Below are positions 14,406 to 26,683 of a stretch of DNA of 26,683 bases, piece after piece. This DNA is from a virus. Position 1 is the stretch's first letter. Each line of letters begins with the position of its first letter. The notes under the pieces are model-generated. The model saw nothing but the letters and a program-made list of their open reading frames with translations, ran no database searches and was not told the DNA's origin. Location of the stretch: positions 1 to 26,683 of IMG/VR virus record IMGVR_UViG_3300012925_000014. One strand, written 5' to 3'. The position numbers and the translations under genes are program-made.

Positions 14406-14443
14406 GAAAAAGCCCGCCGCGGCGATTTAACGCCGGGCGGGCT
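14406..14443 (-). terminator. Rho-independent terminator of the tRNA operon (convergent)
   Basis: A long GC stem (14411-14425 with 14431-14443, one bulged G, six-base AU loop) is followed on the minus strand by TTTTTCGTTTTC. This is a textbook intrinsic terminator ending the minus-strand tRNA operon just after tRNA-Trp. From the plus strand it lies after the DUF7352 gene but has no U-run, so it mainly serves the tRNA side. Confidence 0.88.
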
Positions 14444-14454
14444 GGATCGATAAT

Positions 14455-14528
14455 TGGCAGGAGCTGTAGGAATCAAACCCACGCCAGCGGAGTTGGAGGC
14501 CGCTGTGCTTTCATTACACCAAACTCCC
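14455..14528 (-). tRNA. tRNA-Trp(CCA)
   Basis: 74 bases with encoded CCA. Acceptor GGGAGTT pairs with AGCTCCT (two G-U). Anticodon loop CTCCAAC has T33 and A37; the bottom stem pair is a C-T mismatch. The D-loop (AATGAAA) lacks the usual GG and the T-loop is TTTGATT. Last tRNA of the operon. Confidence 0.85.
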
Positions 14529-14573
14529 AAATTTTGGTACTTGTCATCTTGACTGTGAAATGCAAAATGTGAC

Positions 14574-15167
14574 ATGGGAAAGAAAATATACGACTGGCCA
14601 GTCATTGCCATCGACTATAATGCAGGCATGTCATGGGATGATCTCGGGGCCAAATATGGTTGCTCCCATGAAGGTATTCAGAAAGCTCTCGCTACAGGAC
14701 GACTCATCCAGCGCTCACGCATCAAACCCAAGCGCAGGCCACGCAAGATTAAGACCAAAGAGCAGAACAGCGAATACTGCCGAAATCATTATCAAAAGAA
14801 CAAGGCCCGCTATAAGTCAAAAGCTAGGGCCAATTCTCTTGTCCGAGCCGAAAAAAGCCGGGCCATAATTTTGGAAAGATTCGCGCACGGCTGTGTGGAT
14901 TGCGGGGAGACGGATTTACTTGTTCTTGAATTTGATCACAGAGATCGAGTGGACAAAGAATACCAGATTTCCTTCCTCTGCAATCCGCGCGGCGCAAACG
15001 TGAAGAAACTCGAAACAGAACTCAAGAAATGTGACGTGAGATGCGCAAACTGTCACCGCCGTAAGACCGCCGTCGAATGCGGCTCGTGGCGTACAAAATT
15101 GGCACTGGGCACAGGTGTCGAACCTGTGATTCCGAGTCCACAGCCCGGCGGTTTACCGTTAGCCTAG
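14574..15167 (+). CDS. HNH endonuclease, antisense to the tRNA operon
   Basis: A 197-residue reading. A helical, HTH-like head (IDYNAGMSWDDLGAKYGCSHEGIQKAL) and a basic linker precede an HNH core: HGCVDCGETDLLVLEFDHRDRVDKEYQIS, then LETELKKCDVRCANCHRRKTAVECGSWR, with two Cys pairs for zinc and the H-N-H set. It is the only gene on the plus strand in the tRNA cluster, inserted between tRNA-His and tRNA-Trp. The last about 22 residues (LALGTGVEPVIP...) are an antisense reading of tRNA-His, so the stop lies inside that tRNA. No good ribosome site precedes ATG. Probably a mobile homing-type nuclease. Confidence 0.85.
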   Translation: MGKKIYDWPVIAIDYNAGMSWDDLGAKYGCSHEGIQKALATGRLIQRSRIKPKRRPRKIKTKEQNSEYCRNHYQKNKARYKSKARANSLVRAEKSRAIILERFAHGCVDCGETDLLVLEFDHRDRVDKEYQISFLCNPRGANVKKLETELKKCDVRCANCHRRKTAVECGSWRTKLALGTGVEPVIPSPQPGGLPLA

Positions 15168-15173
15168 CCCAGC
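15100..15173 (-). tRNA. tRNA-His(GTG)
   Basis: 74 bases with CCA. Acceptor GCTGGGC with GCCCAGT. Anticodon loop CTGTGGA (GTG, G37). Canonical T-loop TTCGACA. The 3' portion is overlapped on the other strand by the HNH reading. Confidence 0.92.
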
Positions 15174-15174
15174 A

Positions 15175-15245
15175 TGGTCCCGAAGGGCGGTGTCGACCCG
15201 CCCTGACAGCCGTATGAAAGCCATTTCCTCGCCGGAGGCATCGGG
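15175..15245 (-). tRNA. tRNA-Met-type (CAT), atypical D arm
   Basis: 71 bases with CCA. Acceptor CCCGATG with CTTCGGG (one T-T mismatch). Anticodon loop TTCATAC gives CAT; its stem is rich in G-U pairs. The D arm is shrunken (CCTC, CGGC loop, GAGG). T-loop GTCGACA lacks T54. It could serve as Met, fMet or Ile2 depending on modification. Confidence 0.72.
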
Positions 15246-15249
15246 ATGT

Positions 15250-15320
15250 TGGCTGGGGCTCCGAGTGTCGATCTCGATCGCCGAGCTTCAAAGGCCCAGG
15301 CCGGCGCCGGCCGCGCCCCA
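15250..15320 (-). tRNA. tRNA-Gln(TTG)
   Basis: 71 bases with CCA. Acceptor TGGGGCG with AGCCCCA (T1-A72 as usual for Gln; the seventh pair is G-A). Anticodon loop CTTTGAA. T-loop ATCGACA (A54). The D arm is GC-rich and compact. Confidence 0.82.
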
Positions 15321-15325
15321 TCAAA

Positions 15326-15401
15326 TGGTAGACCATGACGGTACTGACCCGTCGTCTCCGGGGTGAAGGCCCGGGATGCTATGCCTTTGCACCAATGGTC
15401 C
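15326..15401 (-). tRNA. tRNA-Glu(TTC) with C33
   Basis: 76 bases with CCA. Perfect acceptor GGACCAT with ATGGTCT (one G-U). Anticodon stem CCGGG/CCCGG holds loop CCTTCAC: anticodon TTC but C instead of the near-universal T at position 33. T-loop GTCAGTA lacks T54, T55 and C56. Confidence 0.82.
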
Positions 15402-15402
15402 A

Positions 15403-15477
15403 TGGAGCGGGCACCGAGTAACGATCTCGGCTCCTCAGTTTGGAAGACTGGTGGACATCCATCTATCCCATACCCGC
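15403..15477 (-). tRNA. tRNA-Gly(TCC)
   Basis: 75 bases with CCA and T73 as usual for Gly. Acceptor GCGGGTA with TGCCCGC. Anticodon loop CTTCCAA. T-loop ATCGTTA (A54). Confidence 0.9.
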
Positions 15478-15488
15478 ATGTTAATTTT

Positions 15489-15576
15489 TGGCGGAAGGTC
15501 GGAGACACGATCACCACACCGTTGCCAGTGCCACATCCTTAGCAGGGAGTGCCGGCGCCTCGCCGGTTGACCTTCC
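15489..15576 (-). tRNA. tRNA-Ser(GCT)
   Basis: 88 bases with CCA and a long variable arm as expected for Ser. Acceptor GGAAGGT with ACCTTCC is perfect. Anticodon loop CTGCTAA. T-loop ATCGTGT (A54). Confidence 0.9.
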
Positions 15577-15582
15577 GTGAAT

Positions 15583-15659
15583 TGGTCTCGCCGCGGCGAT
15601 TCGAACGCCGACACATCCGTTTAGGAGACGAAGGCCCTTTCCAGTTGGGCGACGGCGAG
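15583..15659 (-). tRNA. tRNA-Arg(CCT)
   Basis: 77 bases with CCA. Perfect acceptor CTCGCCG with CGGCGAG. Anticodon loop CTCCTAA in a TTCGT/ACGGA stem. Canonical T-loop TTCGAAT. One base separates it from the next tRNA-like gene. Confidence 0.93.
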
Positions 15660-15660
15660 A

Positions 15661-15742
15661 TGGAGCCCAGAGCGTGATTCGAACACGCGATTTCAGTTCC
15701 ACTACCGTTCGCGATTTAGAAGATCGCTCGGACTACCTGGGC
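15661..15742 (-). tRNA. Atypical tRNA-Arg-like (TCT) with displaced D-like element
   Basis: 82 bases with CCA, T73, acceptor GCCCAGG with TCTGGGC, and a canonical T arm (GCGTG, TTCGAAT, CACGC). A perfect anticodon arm GCGAT-CTTCTAA-ATCGC follows the acceptor after only eight bases, leaving no room for a D arm. A 22-base segment containing ACGGTAGTGGAAC, which looks like a D-loop, lies between anticodon and T arms instead. Confidence 0.6.
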
Positions 15743-15744
15743 AT

Positions 15745-15820
15745 TGGAGATGCAGGCGAGATTCGAACTCGCGTATCCAGGCTTTGCAGGCCCGGCCGTA
15801 ACCACTCCGGTCACTGCATC
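15745..15820 (-). tRNA. tRNA-Cys(GCA)
   Basis: 76 bases with CCA and T73. Perfect acceptor GATGCAG with CTGCATC. Anticodon loop CTGCAAA. Normal D arm and T-loop TTCGAAT. Confidence 0.95.
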
Positions 15821-15824
15821 ATAT

Positions 15825-15894
15825 TGGCTGCGGAGGAGGGACTTGAACCCGCGTCATCCGATTCAGAGTCGGACTTACCGCCTTGGTCTCCGCA
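15825..15894 (-). tRNA. tRNA-Gln(CTG)
   Basis: 70 bases with CCA. Perfect acceptor TGCGGAG with CTCCGCA (T1-A72). Perfect anticodon stem TCCGA/TCGGA with loop CTCTGAA. Short D arm. T-loop TTCAAGT. Confidence 0.92.
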
Positions 15895-15897
15895 AAA

Positions 15898-15973
15898 TGG
15901 TCAGGGTGGGTGGTCACGATCCACCGGCCTCTCGCTTCCGAAGCGAGCACTCTTCCTACTGAGCTACACCCTG
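15898..15973 (-). tRNA. tRNA-Pro(CGG)
   Basis: 76 bases with CCA. Perfect acceptor CAGGGTG with CACCCTG. Perfect anticodon stem CTCGC/GCGAG with loop TTCGGAA. Canonical D arm (TAGCTCAGTAGG). T-loop ATCGTGA (A54). Confidence 0.95.
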
Positions 15974-15978
15974 TTGAT

Positions 15979-16062
15979 TGGCGTCGGCGGCAGGAGTCGA
16001 ACCCGCATCTTCCGTTTCCAGTTACCTTTGTCCTGATTCGTAGTCAGGGGGGCTACGCCGAC
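15979..16062 (-). tRNA. Atypical tRNA-Arg-like (ACG) with displaced D-like element
   Basis: 84 bases with CCA. Perfect acceptor GTCGGCG with CGCCGAC and canonical T arm (loop TTCGACT). A perfect anticodon arm CCTGA-CTACGAA-TCAGG follows the acceptor after only seven bases. A 25-base segment with AAGGTAACTGGAAAC sits before the T arm. This is the same rearranged order as the TCT gene at 15661. The 5' ten bases overlap the end of the upstream HNH gene. Confidence 0.6.
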
Positions 16063-16445
16063 AATCTATCTAGATAGTCTTTTTTCCACTTTCTGCAGGC
16101 CTCGTTCCAAGCGATTCGACAAGGCTCACATCGACATCGGTTATTGCGATAGCAGGATGCTGTGCCGTGCTTGGGAGCATGTATTTCCTTATGATGCTCG
16201 ACGCACCGCAATTCACATTTCTCAAGCTCCTTCAAAAGAACCGCCCATGGCCAAGAGTGGAATGTCGATATCGTAAATTCTTTAGCCTGCGGGTCGATAT
16301 GATGGGTTTGCAGGCCATCGATGGCACCGCAGACGACACAACTCCCACCAAGATGGGCGATCACCTTGGCCATCCTCTTCTTGTAACGCTCGCGAGAGTA
16401 GGCGGCCTGCCACTCTCTTCGCTCGTCATCATTCTTCCATTTCAT
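16053..16445 (-). CDS. HNH endonuclease inserted between tRNA-Glu and tRNA-Arg
   Basis: A 130-residue protein. The zinc/HNH core is GGSCVVCGAIDGLQTHHIDPQAKEFTIS, then LEKCELRCVEHHKEIHAPKHG; a later CYRNNRCRCEPC adds more Cys. The ATG starts directly after the CCA of tRNA-Glu (CCAATG) and the TAG lies ten bases into the next tRNA, so the gene fills the gap exactly. No Shine-Dalgarno is present ahead of the ATG, since that DNA is tRNA acceptor stem. Probably a free-standing homing nuclease co-transcribed with the tRNAs. Confidence 0.85.
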   Translation of the reverse strand: MKWKNDDERREWQAAYSRERYKKRMAKVIAHLGGSCVVCGAIDGLQTHHIDPQAKEFTISTFHSWPWAVLLKELEKCELRCVEHHKEIHAPKHGTASCYRNNRCRCEPCRIAWNEACRKWKKDYLDRLSA

Positions 16446-16520
16446 TGGCAGACCTGCGGGGGATCGAACCCCGTTCCCCGGATTGAGAATCCAGCTATCC
16501 TACCAATAGACGACAGGTCC
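16446..16520 (-). tRNA. tRNA-Glu(CTC)
   Basis: 75 bases with CCA. Acceptor GGACCTG with CAGGTCT (one G-U). Anticodon stem CTGGA/TCCGG, loop TTCTCAA. T-loop TTCGATC. The HNH gene starts at its 3' end. Confidence 0.92.
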
Positions 16521-16525
16521 GTAAA

Positions 16526-16602
16526 TGGCTTCGGAGGTGGGTTACGATCCCACATCGACACGTGTTAACAGCACGCCGTCCTTCCCATTTGACTACTCCG
16601 AA
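16526..16602 (-). tRNA. tRNA-Asn(GTT)
   Basis: 77 bases with CCA. Perfect acceptor TTCGGAG with CTCCGAA. Anticodon loop CTGTTAA. T-loop ATCGTAA (A54). Confidence 0.93.
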
Positions 16603-16604
16603 CT

Positions 16605-16676
16605 TGGTGGAGAGCAGGGGTGTCGATCCCCTCCGGCCAATCTTGCAAGGATCGGCAGCGCCCCGGCGCGCTCCCC
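16605..16676 (-). tRNA. tRNA-Ala(TGC)
   Basis: 72 bases with CCA and A73. Acceptor GGGGAGC with GCTCTCC (one G-U). Anticodon loop CTTGCAA. T-loop ATCGACA (A54). Confidence 0.92.
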
Positions 16677-16680
16677 GTAT

Positions 16681-16756
16681 TGGTGCCCTGCGCCTGATTC
16701 GAACAGGCCTACTCCGCCTTTCACGCGGCCGCAATCACCAGATTTGCTAACAGGGC
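16681..16756 (-). tRNA. tRNA-Phe(GAA)
   Basis: 76 bases with CCA. Acceptor GCCCTGT with GCAGGGC (one G-U). Anticodon loop GTGAAAG. Canonical T-loop TTCGAAT. Confidence 0.93.
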
Positions 16757-16760
16757 GAAT

Positions 16761-16834
16761 TGGCGCGGACACCGAGAGTCGAACTCGGGCCACCTCGTTG
16801 GCAACGAGGGAGACTGCCGTAATCCTTTGTCCGC
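16761..16834 (-). tRNA. tRNA-Gly(GCC)
   Basis: 74 bases with CCA. Perfect acceptor GCGGACA with TGTCCGC. Perfect anticodon stem CCTCG/CGAGG, loop TTGCCAA. G73 rather than the usual T73 of Gly. T-loop TTCGACT. Confidence 0.88.
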
Positions 16835-16835
16835 A

Positions 16836-16921
16836 TGGTGCCCCACCCAGGGAACGATCCTGGCCAGCCCGAAGGCGTCCGTTTTACAGACGGCGCTGCG
16901 TCCTTAGCAGCCTACTGAGGC
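16836..16921 (-). tRNA. tRNA-Tyr(GTA)
   Basis: 86 bases with CCA and a long variable arm (GCC-TTCG-GGC), as in bacterial Tyr. Acceptor GCCTCAG with GTGGGGC (one G-U, one G-G mismatch). Anticodon loop CTGTAAA. T-loop ATCGTTC (A54). Confidence 0.88.
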
Positions 16922-16925
16922 AAAA

Positions 16926-16979
16926 TGTACAGGCGAGCGGTCACACCGCAGTTCAAAGACCTTCTTTCGGTCTACCTGT
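16926..16979 (-). other. T-shaped structured insert between tRNA-Met and tRNA-Tyr
   Basis: The stretch folds into a closing stem (16929-16933 with 16975-16979), an arm AGACC/GGTCT (16957-16961 with 16969-16973) with a seven-base loop, and an arm GCGGT/ACCGC (16937-16941 with 16945-16949) with a three-base loop. There is no CCA and no usable anticodon. It could be a processing spacer, a tRNA remnant or a small RNA. Confidence 0.45.
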
Positions 16980-16980
16980 T

Positions 16981-17062
16981 TGGTTGCGGGACACGGGAGT
17001 CGAACCCGCTATCCTCACGTTATGAGCGTGAGATGGTCAAGTGTCCGTTCCACTCGCCCGCA
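16981..17062 (-). tRNA. tRNA-Met-type (CAT)
   Basis: 82 bases with CCA. Acceptor TGCGGGC with TCCCGCA (last pair mismatched). Anticodon stem TCACG/CGTGA with loop CTCATAA. The D region is long (24 bases) and one extra base lies before the acceptor 3' strand. T-loop TTCGACT. It may decode Met or, if lysidine-modified, ATA. Confidence 0.82.
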
Positions 17063-17064
17063 AT

Positions 17065-17155
17065 TGGTGCGCCGCTTGAACTCGGTCGCATATCGTCGAG
17101 TACATCCGTCGATCGATAGGAACCCGCTCGCGCGACATGCGCGCTCACGAGGATA
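17065..17155 (-). other. tRNA-like remnant with CCA end and strong hairpin
   Basis: The 3' side ends GGCGCACCA with a GTTCAA just before, like a T-loop and acceptor, but no matching 5' acceptor strand can be found. A GCGCG/CGCGC hairpin (17130-17134 with 17140-17144) occupies the 5' half. Probably a decayed tRNA or structured spacer. Confidence 0.35.
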
Positions 17156-17244
17156 TGGCGGGTGAGGGGTAGTACCGCCCTCCATGCCCGAAGGCACCTT
17201 TGGTTTTCGAGACCAAGCTAGGGACTTCCCTAGTTCTCTCACCC
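17156..17244 (-). tRNA. tRNA-Ser(CGA)
   Basis: 89 bases with CCA and a long variable arm. Perfect acceptor GGGTGAG with CTCACCC. Perfect anticodon stem TTGGT/ACCAA with loop CTCGAAA. The T-loop (GGTACTA) lacks the TTC signature. Confidence 0.9.
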
Positions 17245-17247
17245 GAT

Positions 17248-17323
17248 TGGTGATCCCCCGGTGATTCGAACACCGTATCTCAACTTTCGGAGAGTTGCGT
17301 CTTTTCCATCCGACTCGGGGACC
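17248..17323 (-). tRNA. tRNA-Arg(CCG)
   Basis: 76 bases with CCA. Acceptor GGTCCCC with GGGGATC (one G-U). Perfect anticodon stem CAACT/AGTTG, loop CTCCGAA. T-loop TTCGAAT. The RusA-like stop codon ends one base before its 5' end. Confidence 0.94.
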
Positions 17324-17324
17324 G

Positions 17325-17696
17325 TTATTTTCCCTTACGCCTTACCTTGCCGCGCTCGAAGGCACCGTTCGGCCAGAAGCAATCCATCGTTACCTTAGCA
17401 ATCAGGCCATCGTCGGTGAACACCGCCGGTCCCTTCAGCGTCATACCGTCCACCGCCTGCTCGAATGCAAGGTAGCTTCCACCGCGGTCCGGAGACGCTG
17501 GATTGACGAAAAACAGATCGAGGTCTGTTGGCTCGTCCAGCGGCACAGGCACTCCAGCGGTCATGCAGGCCGCGTACAGCGCCTCCCGGTAGCGCTGGAT
17601 CACCGCGAGGTGCATGCGCCGGTGCGGGGCGTCATGGATCGACATCCGCAGCAAAGCTGGAAACCGGTCTGGGAAGTATTTGACGATGATCTTCAT
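17325..17696 (-). CDS. Second RusA-like resolvase gene within the tRNA cluster
   Basis: A 123-residue protein. LDEPTDLDLFFVNPASPDRGGSYLAFEQAVDGMTLKGPAVFTDDGLIAKVTM follows the RusA plan: a strand, Asp followed by a helix, then DDGLIAKV as the later acidic motif. It is shorter and more divergent than the RusA at 5494, with Asp-Arg-Gly replacing Asp-x-Asp-Asn. The ATG shares its A with the final A of the tRNA-Met CCA (CCATG), and the TAA ends one base before tRNA-Arg(CCG), so the gene exactly fills the space between two tRNAs. No separate ribosome site is visible. Confidence 0.65.
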   Translation of the reverse strand: MKIIVKYFPDRFPALLRMSIHDAPHRRMHLAVIQRYREALYAACMTAGVPVPLDEPTDLDLFFVNPASPDRGGSYLAFEQAVDGMTLKGPAVFTDDGLIAKVTMDCFWPNGAFERGKVRRKGK

Positions 17697-17771
17697 GGTG
17701 CACGTTCGGAGGATCGAACTCCGTCCTCTTGCTGTTATGAGCAGCCGGCCGTCCCATCTGGCTCAGCGTGC
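17696..17771 (-). tRNA. tRNA-Met-type (CAT)
   Basis: 76 bases with CCA. Acceptor GCACGCT with AACGTGC (one mismatch). Anticodon stem GCTG/CAGC with loop CTCATAA. T-loop TTCGATC. The last A of CCA is also the A of the RusA-like ATG. Confidence 0.88.
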
Positions 17772-17775
17772 GAAT

Positions 17776-17849
17776 TGGTCAGGGTACGCAGAGTCGAACT
17801 GCGGCTGCATGCTTCCAAAGCACACCGACTACCGTAATCTTTCACCCTG
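17776..17849 (-). tRNA. tRNA-Pro(TGG)
   Basis: 74 bases with CCA. Acceptor CAGGGTG with TACCCTG (one G-U). Anticodon loop TTTGGAA. T-loop TTCGACT. Confidence 0.93.
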
Positions 17850-17853
17850 TCGC

Positions 17854-17916
17854 GAGAGGCCGGATGGCTCCGTTATCCTTGCGACCAAAGCCGTTTGGTC
17901 ACTCAGTACGCCTCTC
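17854..17916 (-). other. tRNA-like element with perfect acceptor-like stem but no CCA
   Basis: A perfect 7-bp closing stem GAGAGGC/GCCTCTC (17910-17916 with 17854-17860) encloses a strong arm GACCAAA/TTTGGTC and a weaker GGAT/ATCC arm. The 3' end is GCGA, not CCA, and no anticodon with T33 exists. At 63 bases it mimics a tRNA in shape and position. Confidence 0.45.
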
Positions 17917-17921
17917 AGAAT

Positions 17922-17996
17922 TGGCGACCGCTGCGGGGAATGATCCCGCCTCACGTCATGGACAGTGACGCTGCCTCACCTGATGCATAAGCGGCC
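17922..17996 (-). tRNA. tRNA-Asp(GTC)
   Basis: 75 bases with CCA and G73. Acceptor GGCCGCT with AGCGGTC (one G-U). Perfect anticodon stem CGTCA/TGACG, loop CTGTCCA. T-loop ATCATTC (A54). Confidence 0.94.
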
Positions 17997-17997
17997 A

Positions 17998-18073
17998 TGG
18001 TGTGCACAGGGAGATTCGAACTCCCACTGAACGCGATCTCAACGCGATCCCTCTGCCGTTGGGGTACGTGCAC
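17998..18073 (-). tRNA. tRNA-Leu(GAG), short variable loop
   Basis: 76 bases with CCA. Acceptor GTGCACG with TGTGCAC (one G-U). Anticodon loop TTGAGAT gives GAG. The variable loop is only about five bases, unlike normal bacterial Leu tRNAs with a long variable arm. T-loop TTCGAAT. Identity is by anticodon only. Confidence 0.8.
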
Positions 18074-18078
18074 ATGAT

Positions 18079-18152
18079 TGGTCAACCGCCACGGTAACGA
18101 TCCGTGTTCCCGGGGTTAAGAGGCCCGTGCATCACCTTAATGCTTGCGGTCG
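18079..18152 (-). tRNA. tRNA-Lys(CTT)
   Basis: 74 bases with CCA. Acceptor CGACCGC with GCGGTTG (one G-U). Anticodon loop CTCTTAA with a C-C mismatch at the base of the loop. T-loop ATCGTTA (A54). Confidence 0.9.
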
Positions 18153-18156
18153 ATGA

Positions 18157-18231
18157 TGGTGGATCACCCCGGTACTGCCCCGGGTTCGCATGGGTTAAAA
18201 GGCCAGCGTGCTACTTTCCTACTCGTGATCC
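18157..18231 (-). tRNA. tRNA-Lys(TTT)
   Basis: 75 bases with CCA. Perfect acceptor GGATCAC with GTGATCC. Anticodon loop CTTTTAA with a C-C mismatch at the loop base, shared with Lys(CTT). T-loop GGCAGTA lacks the TTC signature. Confidence 0.88.
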
Positions 18232-18236
18232 GGTGA

Positions 18237-18356
18237 TCACGAGCATTTCAGATTGCGCTCCTCGCACACCACGATCGTGCCGGTGTCCGCGAAGTGATGG
18301 ACCCAGCGTCGCCGCAGGCGCACGGGCTGGAGACCGAACTGACAATGGACGCACAT
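18237..18356 (-). CDS. 39-residue zinc-ribbon-like protein in the tRNA cluster
   Basis: A tiny gene starting MCVHCQFGLQ with AGGAGG six bases ahead of the ATG, a much better ribosome site than most genes here. A CxxC pair at residues 2-5, His residues in RRRWVHHFADTG and two later Cys (VVCEERNLKC) suggest a single zinc ribbon or treble-clef-like fold. A stop follows six bases before tRNA-Lys(TTT). Small phage zinc proteins of this kind often bind nucleic acid or host enzymes, but no function can be assigned. Confidence 0.62.
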   Translation of the reverse strand: MCVHCQFGLQPVRLRRRWVHHFADTGTIVVCEERNLKCS

Positions 18357-18371
18357 GGGCGACCTCCTGGT

Positions 18372-18441
18372 TGGTGCTCGGTGACGGCTCGCACCATCGC
18401 ACGGTGTATACGTCGCGCGCCGTGCCTTGCGAAGACCGAGC
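18372..18441 (-). tRNA. tRNA-like gene, anticodon not assignable
   Basis: 70 bases with CCA. Perfect acceptor GCTCGGT with ACCGAGC and a T-like arm GATGG/CCGTC with a six-base loop. Where the anticodon arm should be there is a 6-bp stem GCACGG/CCGTGC with a 15-base loop containing GTATAC, so no standard anticodon. It may be an altered Val-type tRNA or an inactive one. Confidence 0.45.
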
Positions 18442-18445
18442 ATGA

Positions 18446-18520
18446 TGGTAGTCCCTGCAGGTTTCGATCCTGCTTTCCGCGGGTATCGACCGCGTGCCTT
18501 AGCCACTAGACGAAGGGACC
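18446..18520 (-). tRNA. tRNA-Ile(GAT) with C33
   Basis: 75 bases with CCA. Acceptor GGTCCCT with AGGGACT (one G-U). Perfect anticodon stem CGCGG/CCGCG holds loop TCGATAC: GAT with C instead of T at 33. D arm GTCT/AGGC normal; body resembles Glu tRNAs. T-loop ATCGAAA (A54). Confidence 0.82.
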
Positions 18521-18525
18521 GTTGA

Positions 18526-18600
18526 TGGTGCGCGCTGCAGGGGATGATCCTGCCGCCTCCGGCGTGTCATACCGGCGCTCTACCGCTGAGCTAAGCGCGC
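18526..18600 (-). tRNA. tRNA-Val(GAC)
   Basis: 75 bases with CCA. Perfect acceptor GCGCGCT with AGCGCGC. Anticodon stem CCGGT/GCCGG, loop ATGACAC. Canonical D arm (TAGCTCAGCGG). T-loop ATCATCC (A54). Confidence 0.94.
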
Positions 18601-18609
18601 TTGAATTTA

Positions 18610-18655
18610 CGCCGCTGCAGCGGCGGGTGAACTCTGGGCTGCAGGCCCGCTTCAC
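18610..18655 (-). other. Structured insert: 16-bp palindrome plus hairpin
   Basis: 18610-18625 is a perfect 16-bp palindrome (CGCCGCTG and its complement). Next to it GTGAA/TTCAC (18627-18631 with 18651-18655) encloses GGGC/GCCC. It lies between the two Val tRNAs and has no tRNA or coding features. Confidence 0.4.
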
Positions 18656-18660
18656 CGTGC

Positions 18661-18735
18661 TGGTACTCCCTCCCGGGATCGAGCCGGGTCATGCCGCGGT
18701 GTAGGCGCGGTGCCTTCCCATCTGGCGCAGGGAGC
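18661..18735 (-). tRNA. tRNA-Val(TAC) with C33
   Basis: 75 bases with CCA. Acceptor GCTCCCT with AGGGAGT (one G-U). Perfect anticodon stem CCGCG/CGCGG, loop CCTACAC: TAC with C at 33. T-loop CTCGATC (C54). Confidence 0.85.
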
Positions 18736-18832
18736 GTGAATTGTGCCCGGGTCTCCGTAGAGCATAAATTCGGGTATTCGGCCCGAACCACCGCATCGTC
18801 TCTCCGCCGATGCCCCGGTTCCTTGTGTGTCG
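18736..18832 (-). other. Structured spacer without a clear tRNA
   Basis: About 97 bases between tRNA-Val and tRNA-Leu. On the minus strand there are strong hairpins: GCATCG/CGATGC, and TTCGGG/CCCGAA with a seven-base loop CCGAATA that resembles an anticodon arm (GAA, C33). The 3' side reads CCCGGGCACA, close to a discriminator plus a broken CCA. Possibly a decayed Phe-type tRNA; nothing coding is evident. Confidence 0.35.
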
Positions 18833-18912
18833 TGGTACCCCGAGCAGGACTCGAACCCGCAAGAACAAACTGCCTTTGAAGCAGCGGCGTCTACCAATTC
18901 CGCCATCGGGGC
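18833..18912 (-). tRNA. tRNA-Leu(CAA)
   Basis: 80 bases with CCA. Acceptor GCCCCGA with TCGGGGT (one G-U). The D region (TGGCGGAATTGGTAGACGC) is Leu-like. Anticodon loop TTCAAAG. Variable region shorter than usual for Leu. T-loop TTCGAGT. Confidence 0.93.
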
Positions 18913-18915
18913 AAA

Positions 18916-19002
18916 TGGTGCGTAAGGGGAGAATCGAACTCCCATGGCTGCTAACCGCTGGTGTCTGAAGCCAGTGCGTCTACCAAATTCCGCCACTCAC
19001 GC
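18916..19002 (-). tRNA. tRNA-Leu(CAG)
   Basis: 87 bases with CCA and long variable arm, as for Leu. Acceptor GCGTGAG with CTTACGC (one G-U). Anticodon loop TTCAGAC. D arm Leu-like. T-loop TTCGATT. Confidence 0.95.
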
Positions 19003-19003
19003 A

Positions 19004-19080
19004 TGGAGCCCGGCCGGGGTTTCGATCCCCGTCCTCGCGCTTACCAAGCGCGCGTGCTGGCCATTGATCACTAGCCGGGC
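19004..19080 (-). tRNA. tRNA-Thr(GGT)
   Basis: 77 bases with CCA and T73. Perfect acceptor GCCCGGC with GCCGGGC. Perfect anticodon stem CGCGC/GCGCG, loop TTGGTAA. T-loop ATCGAAA (A54). Confidence 0.94.
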
Positions 19081-19230
19081 ATTTCGCCGTTGTAGGCGCA
19101 GCGCGGCGCCTCGTTGTTTCCGGAATGCGCGGGCGGCTGGGCATCTCATCCCAACGTTTCCAGCCGAAGCTGGCGTGAGTGCTTCACTACGCCCGTCTCT
19201 GCGAGACCATCTTCCGGCTCTTGTCGAACT
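19081..19230 (-). other. Hairpin-rich spacer between Thr tRNAs
   Basis: About 150 bases with no tRNA or convincing gene. On the minus strand it holds a C(UUCG)G tetraloop hairpin CCAGC/GCTGG (19160-19164 with 19169-19173), a longer GGCGT-AGTG/CACT-ACGCC hairpin (19172-19193) that overlaps its last two bases and would compete with it, and GTCTC/GAGAC (19195-19199 with 19203-19207). A GGCGC/GCGCC stem lies nearer 19081. Likely an RNA processing spacer or small structured RNA. Confidence 0.4.
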
Positions 19231-19304
19231 TGGAGCCCCTGCGATGAATCGAACATCGCTCACTGCGCTACGAGGGCAGTGCATCGTCACAATGCTTCAG
19301 GGGC
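19231..19304 (-). tRNA. tRNA-Thr(CGT)
   Basis: 74 bases with CCA and T73. Perfect acceptor GCCCCTG with CAGGGGC. Anticodon loop CTCGTAG with a C-C mismatch at the loop base. T-loop TTCGATT. Confidence 0.9.
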
Positions 19305-19314
19305 AATCTGGTCT

Positions 19315-19389
19315 TGGTGCTGGCTCGGTGAATCGAACACCGGTCATTCGCTGTACAAAGGCGACGGTCTGCCACTGGCCTAAGCCAGC
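19315..19389 (-). tRNA. tRNA-Thr(TGT)
   Basis: 75 bases with CCA. Perfect acceptor GCTGGCT with AGCCAGC. Anticodon loop TTTGTAC. T-loop TTCGATT. It is the first tRNA of the operon, 99 bases after the end of the upstream HNH gene; that gap shows no clear element. Confidence 0.92.
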
Positions 19390-19488: not shown

Positions 19489-19983
19489 TCAGCGGTTGTC
19501 TTTTCGCTCCACAATGGCCTGAGCCACCATGAACATCTCTTCTTCGGTGCCCCACCCTTTGAGCATATTTACTGCCATCAAAACAAAACGACAGTTACTC
19601 TGCAGGTAGCCCGCCTTTGGATCGATGCGGTCAACACTCGCAGAAAGCATTGACCGCATCGCACCGGGCTTAAATTCAATTCCAGAAACCTCACACCGAC
19701 CGGTCCATCTAGCTTTCGCCCAGTCATTCGTAAGGTCACACACCTTTCCTTTTTTCTTGGCCCTGCGTTGAACCTCTCGAACTATACTGCGCCACGGGTG
19801 AACCGCCCGAAGCCGCTGCTCACTAGCCTTCATCTTTGCCCTGCGATTTACTTTATCGCGGGACGCTTCACTCGCCTTCACCTTGTTAGGGTTTTGGCGA
19901 CGATATTCTTTTTGGTAGTCCCGCAGCCGCGTTCGGTTGCGTGAATGCCATGTTCCGGAGGAGGTGGGTTCTTGGGCGTCCAT
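19489..19983 (-). CDS. HNH endonuclease heading the tRNA operon
   Basis: A 164-residue protein. The N-terminal half is a highly basic helix (KEYRRQNPNKVKASEASRDKVNRRAKMK). The core RCEVSGIEFKPGAMRSMLSASVDRIDPKAGYLQSNCRFVLMAVNMLKG has the Cys, SxDRID, GY and SNCRFV..N pattern of phage HNH nucleases. GGAGG lies six bases upstream of ATG. It is the first gene after the operon promoter, so it is co-transcribed with the tRNAs. It is the third HNH gene in this cluster, consistent with repeated mobile-nuclease colonisation. Confidence 0.85.
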   Translation of the reverse strand: MDAQEPTSSGTWHSRNRTRLRDYQKEYRRQNPNKVKASEASRDKVNRRAKMKASEQRLRAVHPWRSIVREVQRRAKKKGKVCDLTNDWAKARWTGRCEVSGIEFKPGAMRSMLSASVDRIDPKAGYLQSNCRFVLMAVNMLKGWGTEEEMFMVAQAIVERKDNR

Positions 19984-20026: not shown

Positions 20027-20171
20027 TTAGTCTTTGCGCCCCTTGGGGCTGTCGATGCCGGATTCGCATACGGCAAACGACCACGTCCGCTGATTGAGCG
20101 GCATGGCGGCTGGCGTATATGTGCGTAGATGTTGCACGGCGGAATCCTAGTTGGTCGAAGTGTAGCCGAGG

Positions 20172-20201
20172 CTTATAGGGCCACGGTAAGCACGATGTCA
20201 A
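20172..20201 (-). promoter_or_regulatory. Promoter of the tRNA operon
   Basis: On the minus strand TTGACA (20196-20201) is followed by an 18-base spacer and TATAAG (20172-20177), a near-consensus sigma-70 promoter. Expected start about 20165, giving a leader of about 180 bases before the HNH gene and then the tRNAs to the terminator at 14406. It lies just after the lysis cassette, so it could add to or insulate from late transcription. Confidence 0.7.
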
Positions 20202-20226
20202 CACCATGCTGCGAATTTTGTTCCGG

Positions 20227-20649
20227 TCACTCCAGCCGGAGCACCGCCCACAGCAGATAAAACGAGCAACAGACGATGCAGCTCACCCATGGCCAATGCC
20301 CCAACATCGGCCTCGTGGTGACGCGCAGGATGCACAGAAAACCTGCGAGCCCCACAAAGACCCCCAACGAGAAGAACGTGGTCTCAATGTCGTCGAGCTG
20401 CAGGAAGCCGTCGTTGGAATATCTGGCGGTCCAAACCACCGCACGCGTCATCAATACGCCAGCGCATGCGATCCAGGTGCCGACCGCGAGCTGCATCGAG
20501 AGCGGCAGAGTGAGCCATCCGCTGACTTTGATGCGCCGCTGGGCGCCGACGACGAAGAGGTGATACGCGAGAAAGACAACGAGATATGCCGACACGATTG
20601 TCCAGAGGCCGTTTCCGATCTCCAGAACGTGACGCCAGTCCATGTTCAC
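20227..20649 (-). CDS. Polytopic membrane protein of the lysis region
   Basis: A 140-residue protein with about four membrane segments (VSAYLVVFLAYHLFVVG, LTLPLSMQLAVGTWIACAGVL, FFSLGVFVGLAGFLCIL, SCIVCCSFYLLWAVL). The GTG at 20649 overlaps the previous stop (GTGA); an ATG two codons later is also possible. It is last in the lysis cassette. It could be a holin, antiholin or envelope-modifying protein; topology alone cannot decide. Confidence 0.65.
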   Translation of the reverse strand: MNMDWRHVLEIGNGLWTIVSAYLVVFLAYHLFVVGAQRRIKVSGWLTLPLSMQLAVGTWIACAGVLMTRAVVWTARYSNDGFLQLDDIETTFFSLGVFVGLAGFLCILRVTTRPMLGHWPWVSCIVCCSFYLLWAVLRLE

Positions 20650-22526: not shown

Positions 22527-25241
22527 CTAGGGCTGCTGCTGGTCTTGGCCGGCGGCTGCACCCACTGGGCCCTGAAGCGCCCGGACGCCCCGCGTCACTG
22601 GCTCACGAGCCGTCGTCGACCCCAGCACACCGATCCGGTTCGCCATCGCTTTGAGGCGGTTCATGATGGCCGTGCTCCCGGCGGCCATCTGGTAGCCGGC
22701 GCGGAGTTGGCGCGGATCATTCGAGGTGAGTAGTTCGGCGACACGGCGCGCGGTCCTAGCGTCGACCGAACCGATCAGATGCTTGGCACCGACCTTGATC
22801 TCGTCAGACAGAAGCCTGCCGGCGCCCGCCCGCGCGCCGGTACCATAGATGGCGCCCTGCCCAATCGACATCGGGTCCCAACCGCTGGCAAAACCGCCGA
22901 TCGCGCCACCAGCGAGGCCAGCCTCGATCAACTGGCGTGCGGTGGTCGAGTTGCCCATTGCTTGGCGTGCGCCATCCATGATGCGCTCCATGTGCATGCG
23001 CGCCTCCAACTGCGCGGCGCCGCCGGGACCGAAGATCGCGGTCGCCATGCGCCGCTCATTCGGCGACGCCATGATGCCGCGGCCCTTGGTGATGTTGGTG
23101 GTATCGGCCATGCTGCCGATGACGCGGTTGGCGAAGTCGGAGGCGTAGCCCTCCTGGAACAGCGCACGTTCGTCAGGCTTCATCTTGCGCATGATCGCCT
23201 CGACGTCCTCGACCGGCATCTTCTTGCCAGCCAATTTCTGACCGGCCTCCAGCGCGTTACTCTCACCGAAGTACCGCTCAGCGACACCACGCGCGTTGGA
23301 ATAGGTCGGGACCTGCTGATCGAGTTCCCCGCGGAGAATCTTCGACATCTGGCCAGCGACGTCGGCGCGCTCGTTGTCCCCGGAGCGCTTTCCCATGTTC
23401 GCGACAGCGTCCAATTCTCGCTTCACCTGATCCCAATACTGCAGGTTCGGGTAAGTCGGCGCGCCGTTGGCGCCCTTGTTGAAAACGATGCGGCCATCTT
23501 GGGTGACGTTGACCATCGGATTGAAGCCGCCGAGCCCCATCACCGCATCGCGGTCCTTGCCGCTGGAGATCGCGCGCTTCATGGCACCGACGAACGTGTC
23601 GCTGCTCATGAGACGCTCCATGGCCGGGGACATCAACGGCCGGTCGCCCTGCTGGTAGGCGGCCTGATAGGCCGGCGTGCGCGCCTTGTCGTATTCGGCC
23701 ACAAGCTGATCGCCGCTCTTGCGTGCGTTCGCCTGACCACCTGGGAGCGCACTGCGAACTGTCTGCGCCACGCGAGGCCCCTGCTCCAGAAAACGCTGCT
23801 CCAGTACCTGCTCCAACATAGCGCGGCCTTCCGGAGAGGTGTTCGCAGCGGACCGCAGCAGCGCTTGGGTGCGCGTCGACCCGAGATCGGCCAGCGTCAC
23901 CGGCTCACCATTGGCACGCGCCGCAGCCCACTGCTGCGGTGTCATACCCTGCGCACGGCCAGCAGAGATCAGTTCTTGGTCGGAGCGCAGTGCGCTAGCA
24001 AGCCTCCGTGACGCCTCTCCGCTCGGGTCCCACCAGCCACGTACGGTTTGGACCGCAGGGGACAGATAGCGTGACCCGATCGCGCCAGCCGCCTCCCCCA
24101 GCGCATGGCCGCCGGCGCCGCCGACGATGCCGCTCACAAGACCCGTCGCGGCATCGACCGCGCGGGAAGCTGTGTCCTTGCCTTCACCGGCGCCAGAGAG
24201 CATGCCGTACTGCCCACCAGCGACCGCCGAATCGAGCGCCCGCGCGCCGAACCGCGCGATGCCGCGCGCCGCCGGGGCCAAGGCCCGCGCAGCTCCAGCC
24301 TCCGGCAGCGCCGCCATCGCCGGGATAGCGCCAGCGAGTTCCGAACCGGCGTAGATATAGGGGTGATTCGCTTGGGCGCCTTCATCGGCCTTGCGTTCGA
24401 CATCACGGGCTGCCTCGTAGGGGTCAGTGATGCTCTTGTCACCAGTGAGATAGCCATAACCAGTGCGCGCAGCACCAGCGATGGTGCGCGCTGGGACCGG
24501 ACCGACAAATTCAGGGACATCGATGCCGAGCCCGGGCACCTTCGGCGCGTTGGCGCGCGCGGCGCTGATCTCGTCGCCGAAATTCATCGACACTCCAGCT
24601 CGTGCGCCGCGCATCGCTGCATCCATGCCGCCGGCATCTGGCACGGTTTCCTTTGCCGGACCGAAGACATCAGCGTCGCTCAGCACTTTCGGTCCAGTGC
24701 CGAAGACCTCGTCATCGCTCAGTACTTTGCCGCCTTCTGCCCGGCGCTTGATCGCACGCAGCGTGTTGCCGTTCTGCAACCAGTCCTTGAACTCCGCGAT
24801 CGATAGATGCGCGACATGACCGATTCGCTGCCGTCCCTTCACGTCCGAGAACGCACGAACATAGGCGGCCTTCGCCTGCCCCACAGAGCCAAAGCCGATT
24901 AGGACTTTATGCTCATTGAATTCGCGGCCGCCGTGCAGATTATGCTGGTCGATCACGAAGACATGCGGGCTCTTGAGGTGCGGCCCGAGGAAGACGTCGA
25001 CATGATCACCATCGGCGCCGGTCGTACGCTTGATGTAGCCGTAGTGATTCGGCAGCTGCGAGCGCCATTCCTTGCCGCCCGGAGACTTGCCAGAGCGCCA
25101 AGAACCCTTCGGGTTCTCGATTGTGATGTCGAGACCGTGCACGCGCACGTGGCCCTTCTGGTAGTTGCCGGCGATCTTCTGCCCGTTGGTCGGGCGCACA
25201 TTGACGCGTCGCGCTTGCTCATTGATGCGGGCGATGTTCAT
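22527..25241 (-). CDS. Large polyvalent phage protein with pyrophosphatase-like domain
   Basis: A 904-residue protein. Residues about 30-157 form an inorganic-pyrophosphatase-like (InPase) domain known from phage polyvalent proteins: VHGLDITIENPKGS, HYGYIKRTTGADGDHVDVFLGP with D77, D79, H80 and D82, and FNEHKVLIGF. A tandem KVLSDDEVFG / KVLSDADVFG follows near 170-195. The rest is a long Gly/Ala-rich and helical region without recognised catalytic motifs, probably structural. The ATG at 25241 overlaps the upstream stop (ATGA). Such proteins are often ejected into the host cell; the InPase may act on nucleotides or pyrophosphate there. Function inferred. Confidence 0.78.
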   Translation of the reverse strand: MNIARINEQARRVNVRPTNGQKIAGNYQKGHVRVHGLDITIENPKGSWRSGKSPGGKEWRSQLPNHYGYIKRTTGADGDHVDVFLGPHLKSPHVFVIDQHNLHGGREFNEHKVLIGFGSVGQAKAAYVRAFSDVKGRQRIGHVAHLSIAEFKDWLQNGNTLRAIKRRAEGGKVLSDDEVFGTGPKVLSDADVFGPAKETVPDAGGMDAAMRGARAGVSMNFGDEISAARANAPKVPGLGIDVPEFVGPVPARTIAGAARTGYGYLTGDKSITDPYEAARDVERKADEGAQANHPYIYAGSELAGAIPAMAALPEAGAARALAPAARGIARFGARALDSAVAGGQYGMLSGAGEGKDTASRAVDAATGLVSGIVGGAGGHALGEAAGAIGSRYLSPAVQTVRGWWDPSGEASRRLASALRSDQELISAGRAQGMTPQQWAAARANGEPVTLADLGSTRTQALLRSAANTSPEGRAMLEQVLEQRFLEQGPRVAQTVRSALPGGQANARKSGDQLVAEYDKARTPAYQAAYQQGDRPLMSPAMERLMSSDTFVGAMKRAISSGKDRDAVMGLGGFNPMVNVTQDGRIVFNKGANGAPTYPNLQYWDQVKRELDAVANMGKRSGDNERADVAGQMSKILRGELDQQVPTYSNARGVAERYFGESNALEAGQKLAGKKMPVEDVEAIMRKMKPDERALFQEGYASDFANRVIGSMADTTNITKGRGIMASPNERRMATAIFGPGGAAQLEARMHMERIMDGARQAMGNSTTARQLIEAGLAGGAIGGFASGWDPMSIGQGAIYGTGARAGAGRLLSDEIKVGAKHLIGSVDARTARRVAELLTSNDPRQLRAGYQMAAGSTAIMNRLKAMANRIGVLGSTTAREPVTRGVRALQGPVGAAAGQDQQQP

Positions 25242-26683
25242 GGCGCCACCCATCCGGTGCCGTTCCACTTCAGTTTACCCCGAGGGGTGTCGTAGATCAT
25301 GCCAACTTGCCGCTGACCCACTGGGGGAGCGGTCGCGCCGGTGACTGGGGCTGCTCCGGCGCTCCCCGCCCCCTCAGAAACCGACTTCGGACCGTAGTGC
25401 TCGCGATAATACTGCTGCATGCGGGCCGGCGAGCCCTTCGCCATATTGATCTCGTTCAACATGGTGTCCAGCACGCGGTTGAACGTCACAGGATCGTAGG
25501 CGGTGTTGAGCAATTCGGCCGCATGGTGGCGTGACGAATCGGTGGTGACGTTCGCGCCGCGCGACATGACGGCCGAATAGGTATTGACAATCGCCTGCGC
25601 GCGCGCCGCCAGCTCGGCTTGATCCGGATTGAGGGTCTTGCGGCTATAGCCCTCCATGAGCTGGTTGAACGGCAGGAACGACGTCCGTGGCAGCCGCTCC
25701 ACGACGCCGCGGACGAGACCGATCGCCCCTTCGGCTTCCATCGCGGCAGCGCCCATGCGGGCCTCCATCGTGCCCAGCGTGCGGGACCCGGCCTTGCGCC
25801 CCTCGAACTCGACGGTGCGCTGCGCCATGTCCTCGGGACTGATCTTCTCCTCATCCATGATTTTCTGGATGGCCCGATTGACCTTGATCTTCGCGGCCCC
25901 GGATTGGCCGAGCCCCTGAAGGATGGTCTTGTCCCCAGACTTCACATACCGCTGAGCGATGCCCTTGGCGTCGTCTTCGGTGAAGCCGCCGTCTTTGCCG
26001 GACCCCTTCAGCTCGACCTTGGCGTCGGATGCTACGGTCTGCCCGCTCGACATATCGATTAGGCGGCCCGTCGACTGATCCATGGCTACCGGCCGATAGA
26101 TGCCATCGGCACCCATGTACTGCCCGGCCGGCACATATTTGGTTCGATCCAAATTCTTCTGTGCGGTACTTTCGGTGGCCACATTGTGCCGCTCGGCCTC
26201 GTTCTGCTTGCGGGTCGACAGGCCTTGGTCGAAGTTCAGCTTCTGCGCCTCGCGACGTAGCTTGTCTGCCTCCTGCACCGCCTTGCGATCGTTCTCCTCG
26301 GCCGCACCGTAGGCGCCGAAGCCGGCCAGCCCACCTTCACCTATCGCATTGCCCAAGAACGGCGACCGGGATGCCATCATGCTGAGGCCGGCCGTGAGGA
26401 GCCCGGTCTGTGCGTTGCGCGACAGCAACCCGAGCCCAAATCCTGGTTCGGAACCTCGCGGCTGCGTGATCGCCGGTGGCAGACCGGCACCACCGAGGCC
26501 GCCTTCCGGCTGGAAGGCCATTGCGCGGCCCTGCGGAGCCCGCCCAGAGGTCGGCGTCGCCGAGGCCGGGGTTTCATCGTCGTCATCGTCCGAGGCCACC
26601 ACGGACGGCCCTGCGGCGCCGGGGCGGGGCTGTGGCGTCGGGACAAGACCGGCATTCGCCGCCTGCATCCCCGGGGTTCCCTC
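25238..26683 (-). CDS. Probable virion/ejection protein, 5' end outside the window
   Basis: The frame is open from the right edge to the TGA at 25238 (481 codons). The first ATG in view (26668) is unlikely to be the start, since the frame continues past it. The N-terminal part is Pro/Ala-rich and disordered, then a Gly-rich segment (LSRNAQTGLLTAGLSMMASRSPFLG) resembling a membrane-associated or core region. The later half is helical (TLGTMEARMGAAAMEAEGAIGLV, LNEINMAKGSPARMQQYYREHYGP). It precedes the polyvalent protein with a four-base overlap, the order seen for internal or ejected virion proteins. Assigned by position and character only. Confidence 0.5.
   Translation of the reverse strand, partial: EGTPGMQAANAGLVPTPQPRPGAAGPSVVASDDDDDETPASATPTSGRAPQGRAMAFQPEGGLGGAGLPPAITQPRGSEPGFGLGLLSRNAQTGLLTAGLSMMASRSPFLGNAIGEGGLAGFGAYGAAEENDRKAVQEADKLRREAQKLNFDQGLSTRKQNEAERHNVATESTAQKNLDRTKYVPAGQYMGADGIYRPVAMDQSTGRLIDMSSGQTVASDAKVELKGSGKDGGFTEDDAKGIAQRYVKSGDKTILQGLGQSGAAKIKVNRAIQKIMDEEKISPEDMAQRTVEFEGRKAGSRTLGTMEARMGAAAMEAEGAIGLVRGVVERLPRTSFLPFNQLMEGYSRKTLNPDQAELAARAQAIVNTYSAVMSRGANVTTDSSRHHAAELLNTAYDPVTFNRVLDTMLNEINMAKGSPARMQQYYREHYGPKSVSEGAGSAGAAPVTGATAPPVGQRQVGMIYDTPRGKLKWNGTGWVAP

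Follow-up and report, generated by a model that had tools for sequence, protein, structure and literature searches.

Transfer RNAs (tRNAs) share a fixed order of parts, namely acceptor, 5′ strand of the D stem, D loop, 3′ strand of the D stem, anticodon arm, variable loop and T arm. To our knowledge, the cloverleaf has been treated as translation's one fixed secondary structure, and even reduced mitochondrial tRNAs keep the order of their arms. Known departures include D-armless mitochondrial tRNAs, which have no D hairpin between the acceptor and anticodon arms; the circularly permuted tRNA genes found in algae and archaea, whose 3′ half is encoded ahead of the 5′ half and whose transcripts are processed into a normal molecule; and the allo-tRNAs found by mining, which have an 8/4 or 9/3 acceptor branch and a non-standard cloverleaf. 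The 9/3 allo-tRNA is named in earlier work (PMC7590224), and dense tRNA arrays have been described in the C1 mycobacteriophage Rizal, with 36 tRNAs (PMC10264068), and as bacterial and plasmid tRNA array units of 26–27 tRNAs for 19–20 amino acids, in which the D and anticodon domains are divergent (PMC12803027). Here we analyzed a tRNA array in the viral record IMGVR_UViG_3300012925_000014 (positions 1 to 26,683, the whole of which we call the window). We hold, with a probability of roughly 0.8, that the array is a single phage tRNA operon for 20 amino acids and that two of its genes, tRNA-Arg(ACG) and tRNA-Arg(TCT), have a distinct architecture in which the D element has been transposed to a place 3′ of the anticodon arm.

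A first-pass annotation of the sequence had counted about 37 tRNA genes on one strand within 5 kb; the cluster, strand and location stand, with the count corrected to 36 by direct reading of the sequence compared with the related contigs L009 and L011. The window is a 26.7-kb fragment, and its relatives were found via a 913-residue protein encoded at 22527-25268: L009, the closest (81% identity, a 71-kb contig), and L010 and L011 (65%). From 5′ to 3′ the genes are Thr-TGT, Thr-CGT, Thr-GGT, Leu-CAG, Leu-CAA, Val-TAC, Val-GAC, Ile-GAT, Lys-TTT, Lys-CTT, Leu-GAG, Asp-GTC, Pro-TGG, Met-CAT, Arg-CCG, Ser-CGA, Met-CAT, Tyr-GTA, Gly-GCC, Phe-GAA, Ala-TGC, Asn-GTT, Glu-CTC, Arg-ACG, Pro-CGG, Gln-CTG, Cys-GCA, Arg-TCT, Arg-CCT, Ser-GCT, Gly-TCC, Glu-TTC, Gln-TTG, CAT (Met or Ile2), His-GTG and Trp-CCA. 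CCA, described earlier as nearly universal, is encoded at all 36 gene ends, and each of the 20 amino acids has at least one tRNA, as had been claimed. The isoacceptor numbers given in the same annotation are exact (four for Arg; three each for Thr, Leu and CAT; pairs for Gln, Glu, Gly, Lys, Pro, Ser and Val), with single genes for Ala, Asn, Asp, Cys, His, Ile, Phe, Trp and Tyr. That the record is of a phage is supported by its matches to the PHROG families of DnaB helicase, a replication initiator, Erf, a RecE-like exonuclease and endolysin; a phrog_2 search found no terminase in the relatives.

Run with default settings, ARAGORN called 25 tRNAs, which all lie on the minus strand of the window and within 14455-19389. 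Lowered thresholds gave 28–35 in that interval, with false calls beginning elsewhere in the window, and calls at the 65–75% threshold were discarded as mostly noise. The Rfam covariance model RF00005 found 12 tRNAs at gathering score in the whole window and 20 at or above that score, plus 2 below it, when the tRNA region was searched alone. ARAGORN, which had been proposed as a check on the gene count, and Rfam recover part of the array, and synteny fills the rest: the genes beyond the 20–25 default calls are backed by the relaxed scans and by L009 and L011, where the tRNA order is the same and where orthologues of many genes that are weak in the window are default calls. A further candidate at 17850-17918 was rejected because it has no consistent fold in the relatives.

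The two Arg genes and their relatives contain the canonical 7-base-pair (bp) acceptor, 5-bp anticodon stem with 7-nucleotide loop, and 5-bp T stem with T loop, but have only 7–8 nucleotides where a D hairpin would normally separate the acceptor from the anticodon arm. The order of elements in the class is acceptor, these 7–8 nucleotides, anticodon arm, a D-loop-like TARNNGGA and T arm. Arg-ACG reads gtcggcg TAGCCCC cctga CTACGAA tcagg ACAAAGGTAACTGGAAACGGAAGAT gcggg TTCGACT cctgc cgccgac GCCA, with perfect acceptor, anticodon and T stems, a 7-nucleotide linker and a D-loop-like AACTGGA behind the anticodon arm, and in its minimum-energy fold the linker GCC pairs with a GGU behind that arm. Arg-TCT, which gave no match as the query of a blastn search, has an 8-nucleotide linker, helices P2b (CCG:CGG) and P2a (GT:AC) and a G-C Levitt pair. 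Its slot in the array is occupied by a transposed orthologue in L011 (19377-19458) and by a canonical cloverleaf in L009 (18639-18713).

Covariation across the class is seen in the acceptor, anticodon, T and transposed-D helices and in the Levitt pair 15-48. We compared 158 representatives of at most 85% identity. The D-stem pairs 12-23 and 11-24, formed by linker bases with the three bases before TAR, are Watson–Crick in 158 of 158, and slid registers of this pairing fail. Pair 11-24 is G-C in 73 representatives, C-G in 61, A-T in 16 and T-A in 8 (shuffled mean 59, maximum 78). The canonical Levitt pair is present between the base after TA and the base immediately 5′ of the T stem, as A-T in 134, G-C in 18, A-C in 1, G-T in 1 and G-G in 4 (Fisher p=2.7e-21 for the A/G by T/C table). 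MAFFT misplaced the 7- and 8-nucleotide-linker groups relative to each other, and pairs over the whole structure were therefore counted on 61 aligned genes of the 8-nucleotide group, in which 96.8% of cells are paired, compared with 63.5% when shuffled and 35–44% when slid, and covariation is 0.937 versus 0.246. In the same alignment P2a, a 2-bp helix of linker bases 10-11 with the two bases after GGA, is paired in 98.4%, and both of its pairs are found at a fixed offset in 60 of 72 genes (shuffled mean 33). These signals bear on whether the class genes might instead be D-armless tRNAs with a long variable loop and an incidental GG-containing stretch. Mitochondrial D-armless tRNAs exist, and the Rfam model aligns window Arg-ACG in just this way, with the D arm deleted and 22 nucleotides inserted after the anticodon arm. 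However, the 15-48 pair and the helix between linker and post-anticodon bases covary strongly and position 20 appears to follow amino-acid identity, and because a random insert would show none of these signals we regard the D-armless explanation as improbable.

Several observations weigh against a transposed D arm. Pair 10-25 is Watson–Crick in only 83 of the 158 representatives, P2a is seen only in the 8-nucleotide-linker group and is unclear in the 7-nucleotide group, and members with ACG or TCG anticodons have only 2 firm D-stem pairs. The single-sequence minimum-energy folds of window Arg-TCT, of Arg-ACG from L009 and of an Ile gene from L062 lack the proposed helix; because the fold of Arg-TCT alone differs in this way, its assignment is drawn from relatives and covariation. 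The 158 representatives are, moreover, related by descent rather than phylogenetically independent. Finally, the search patterns imposed G18 G19 and T33, the Arg scans imposed A20 and one scan fixed GGTA, so that conservation of these features is partly imposed.

Position 20, as shown in part, appears to track amino-acid identity: A occupies it in 177 of the 178 Arg genes and T in 22 of the 24 NAT-anticodon genes, the 7 CCT and 14 TAT/CAT genes having been found without a position-20 requirement. In bacteria, arginylation depends mainly on A20, and U20 is listed for Ile (PMC9976931). We read the NAT-anticodon members as Ile, and the identity positions of canonical tRNAs appear to be retained in class genes generally. 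The transposed genes also seem to stand in for ordinary ones. At the 115 loci with at least eight canonical calls, a canonical ACG tRNA is present in 4 of 84 with a transposed ACG gene and in 11 of 31 without one (p=7e-5), and transposed and canonical TCT genes show the same, weaker trend toward exclusion (p=0.06). This pattern can be set against the idea that class genes act outside translation, as decoys or sponges that engage the host's tRNA nucleases or synthetases. Such a role would suit their place in arrays of tRNAs that are believed to act against tRNA-targeting defence (PMC10264068, PMC11555353) and their anticodon loops, which are textbook Arg/Ile sequences and hence normal cleavage targets. 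A decoy would not account for an isoacceptor slot that otherwise holds a canonical gene, for the apparent upkeep of aminoacylation identity positions or for the CCA encoded in the window and in many relatives, and we consider it very improbable.

The class is widespread and apparently undescribed. A pattern scan of IMG/VR built from the window Arg genes matched at least 119 stretches, and full acceptor, anticodon and T stems are present in 112 of 127 pattern matches, among the matches listed and the loci compared earlier. An anticodon-free structural descriptor applied to 258 loci identified at least 211 unique genes and none in Markov-shuffled loci; after further scans, a stricter descriptor gave at least 261 genes in 200 loci, nearly all phage. 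The isotypes are Arg (ACG, TCG, TCT, CCT and GCG), the NAT-anticodon genes and one Lys. A comparable pattern run on 84,980 bacterial and archaeal genomes matched 10 places, 5 of which pass the structural test; L137, L139, L144, L145 and L146 failed it. Named isolates with copies include the Rhizobium phage RHph_I1_18, Xanthomonas phages X1 and XacN1, Stenotrophomonas phages DLP6 and RAS14, Microbacterium phages Zooman and Pumpernickel, and Mesorhizobium phage Cp1R7A-A1, and in none of these 8 is a class copy annotated. The median number of ordinary tRNA calls at loci with class genes is 10. In an open-access library, to which the literature search was confined, we found no description of this architecture.

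The class genes could also be decaying pseudogenes or chance matches, and it is true that standard finders miss most of them: ARAGORN overlooks 189 of 202, and Rfam finds 2 of the 18 in twelve loci. Yet every helix covaries across 158 dissimilar representatives, shuffled loci contain none, and copies occur in isolated phages of alphaproteobacteria, gammaproteobacteria and actinobacteria, which leaves decay or chance scarcely credible. Two leads from the searches were rejected. Matches in the Streptomyces phage Mildred21 are ordinary tRNA-Phe, and rnaX of T5/BF23 (a "stable RNA with unknown functions"), a BLAST lead, shows a D arm of canonical appearance and lacks any recognisable Arg anticodon arm. 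The 5′ part of rnaX (BF23, L134, 71-854; T5, L135, ~2455-2545) has a GTAACTGGTGGAAGAT-T-arm in common with the transposed class. In addition, matches to GOLLD RNA (RF02032) lie near transposed Arg genes in the tRNA regions of Mesorhizobium phage Cp1R7A-A1 (L152, 3102-3564) and Xanthomonas phage X1 (L147, 4548-4977).

In the architecture that we propose, the D 5′ strand and D loop (positions 10-20) would be relocated 3′ of the anticodon arm, and the 3′ strand of the D stem, still adjoining the anticodon stem, would pair around it with the relocated strand. The anticodon arm and D stem would then make up a single extended hairpin, from whose 3′ side the D loop bulges, and three new joints would arise, from 9 to 22, from 44/45 to 10 and from 21 to 46/48. 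The canonical core is held by the contacts 8-14-21, 9-12-23, 13-22-46, 10-25-45 and 15-48; because the positions at the new joints already touch there, the same L could be wired differently. We infer that the normal L-shape forms, that arginyl- or isoleucyl-tRNA synthetase (ArgRS or IleRS) would charge the class tRNAs and that they would be used in translation. RNase P, EF-Tu and TadA should tolerate the new plan, since what they recognize is chiefly the acceptor/T half or the anticodon hairpin. As to origin, one may speculate that the inner segment was duplicated in tandem and the outer pieces then lost. Judging from sequence, we think it likely that working Arg, Ile and perhaps Lys tRNAs of this kind are in use in phages and in a few bacterial tRNA arrays, their inner permutation giving a core connectivity unlike that of every described tRNA while the L-shape and identity contacts are kept.

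The coordinates of the array, its signals and its interrupting genes are collected in Table 1. A promoter-like site and a terminator hairpin bracket the array, as had been said, and have counterparts in L009 and L011. The promoter-like site lies 813 nucleotides before the first tRNA in the window and 354 in L009, and in L011 TTGACA is followed by a similar downstream leader; the site is absent from the promoter-scan hit list, the rule of that scan requiring T at position 6. A GC-rich hairpin and U-run after tRNA-Trp have the same structure and different sequence in the window, L009 and L011. The tRNA set may well be made as one transcript. The array is not purely tRNAs, because HNH-type endonuclease open reading frames (ORFs) and a 123-residue ORF interrupt it. 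The positions of HNH/endonuclease-VII-type genes in and before the array vary among relatives, and the 123-residue ORF has no match in Pfam or PHROG.

Table 1. Positions of the tRNA array, its two D-transposed genes and associated features in the window
Feature	Coordinates	Strand	Basis or remarks
tRNA operon, 36 tRNA genes	14455..19389	(-)	ARAGORN, Rfam, sequence reading, syntenic relatives
D-transposed tRNA-Arg(ACG)	15979..16062	(-)	Sequence, Rfam alignment, minimum-energy fold, relatives
Arg-ACG, acceptor	16056-16062		
Arg-ACG, linker	16049-16055		TAGCCCC
Arg-ACG, anticodon arm	16032-16048		
Arg-ACG, D-loop-like element	16017-16024		TAACTGGA
Arg-ACG, T arm	15990-16006		
Arg-ACG, acceptor 3′ strand	15983-15989		
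Arg-ACG, 3′ end	15979-15982		GCCA
D-transposed tRNA-Arg(TCT)	15661..15742	(-)	Covariation, relatives
Arg-TCT, linker	15728-15735		TAGTCCGA (8 nucleotides)
Arg-TCT, anticodon arm	15711-15727		
Arg-TCT, D-loop-like element	15698-15704		TAGTGGA
Promoter-like site TTGACA-18-TATAAG	20172..20201	(-)	Upstream of array; both hexamers identical in L009, TTGACA retained in L011
Intrinsic terminator, hairpin and U-run	14406..14443	(-)	3′ of tRNA-Trp; fold -31 kcal/mol
Endonuclease VII/HNH-type ORF	19489..19983	(-)	In leader; PHROG 3322, E 5e-23
HNH endonuclease ORF	16053..16445	(-)	Between Glu-CTC and Arg-ACG; PHROG 4234, E 4e-24
HNH endonuclease ORF	14574..15167	(+)	Between His-GTG and Trp-CCA; PHROG 2255, E 4e-22; matching stretch L011 ~20030-20555
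123-residue ORF	17325..17696	(-)	Between Met-CAT and Arg-CCG; same place in L009, L011 and Bradyrhizobium L143

Some members and neighbors of the array are unusual in other ways. Val-TAC (18661-18735, minus strand) has the anticodon loop CCTACAC, in which U33 is replaced by C, T33 being retained in the L009 and L011 orthologues. Other window tRNAs (Gln-TTG and the third CAT) have short or GG-less D arms, and some have T loops starting with A (ATCGAAA type); both traits are retained in relatives. Between Ser-CGA and Met-CAT lies a conserved tRNA-3′-end-like GCGACCGAGTTCAAGCGGCGCACCA (window 17066-17092, minus strand; L009 ~17675-17729; L011 ~17840-17896), around which there is no complete tRNA and the short region folds no better than shuffles. 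The 913-residue protein, encoded on the minus strand, has an N-terminal domain assigned by Pfam to InPase (PF18823), a domain that occurs within numerous large phage proteins.

Under ordinary wobble the array reads about 52–54 of the 61 sense codons, GCC and CCC being readable only via extended U34 wobble. No phage tRNA reads UCU/UCC/UCA, CUA or UUA, which make up ~2.3% of the 4525 codons in 14 window ORFs. The first-pass annotation had suggested that the phage replaces the host tRNAs; all amino acids are indeed covered, but complete replacement of the host pool is not shown, because these five codons lack a tRNA.

Work on tRNA-cutting defences has shown that phages can be saved from them by phage tRNAs (PMC11555353), and evasion of such defences has been proposed for mycobacteriophages with 36 tRNAs (PMC10264068). 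A chromosomal array in Bradyrhizobium sp. BR13661 (L143, 3865-7943), located beside PdxA and Fe-ADH and followed by the RNA-repair ligase RtcB, has the tRNA order, the 123-residue ORF and the transposed Arg-ACG in common with the window. This synteny between a chromosomal and a phage array suggests that whole tRNA arrays may be exchanged between phages and hosts. RtcB is also encoded near the tRNA arrays of Zooman and Pumpernickel; the records of the window, L009 and L011, possibly fragments themselves, yielded no RtcB. Given the published rescue work and the presence of RtcB beside related arrays, it is plausible that the array would serve to evade tRNA-cutting host defences. The classical reading of phage tRNA sets is codon compensation (PMC10264068), and the whole operon might serve that end instead. 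However, the array covers all 20 amino acids, including tRNAs for very common codons, yet leaves UCU/UCC/UCA uncovered, and a repair ligase adjoins related arrays, so that compensation seems to us an unlikely explanation for the operon as a whole. Why phages might favor the transposed form in particular is more tentative; escape from tRNA-cutting defences is our leading guess, though a doubtful one.

If the proposed architecture is correct, selection keeps the three-dimensional L and not the order of the chain. Because finders miss hundreds of phage tRNA genes, published analyses of phage codon coverage would undercount Arg and Ile tRNAs. Designers of orthogonal tRNAs would also gain a natural scaffold from the class, which in addition allows one to ask whether phages alter tRNA bodies, beyond anticodon loops, against tRNA-cutting defences. 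As an array, the locus resembles Rizal-type clusters in its dense, one-strand arrangement and similar size, but it belongs to a different phage lineage and includes D-transposed tRNAs missed by standard finders. Compared with the bacterial and plasmid tRNA array units, transposition of the D element is the feature of the class described here, and the full text of PMC12803027, as regards the D-arm, does not describe it. Like allo-tRNAs, the class has a natural, non-standard cloverleaf found by mining; its acceptor and T stems, however, have the usual 7 + 5 bp rather than an 8/4 or 9/3 branch, and it is the connectivity of the core that differs. With circularly permuted genes it has in common a non-canonical order of segments, but both ends stay in place, the acceptor 5′ strand coming first and the acceptor 3′ strand and CCA last, and it is an inner segment that would be reordered in the mature RNA. 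Finally, as in D-armless mitochondrial tRNAs, there is no D hairpin between the acceptor and anticodon arms, whereas the class retains a D loop downstream of the anticodon arm, where TARNNGGA with its covarying partners carries the Levitt and position-20 signatures.

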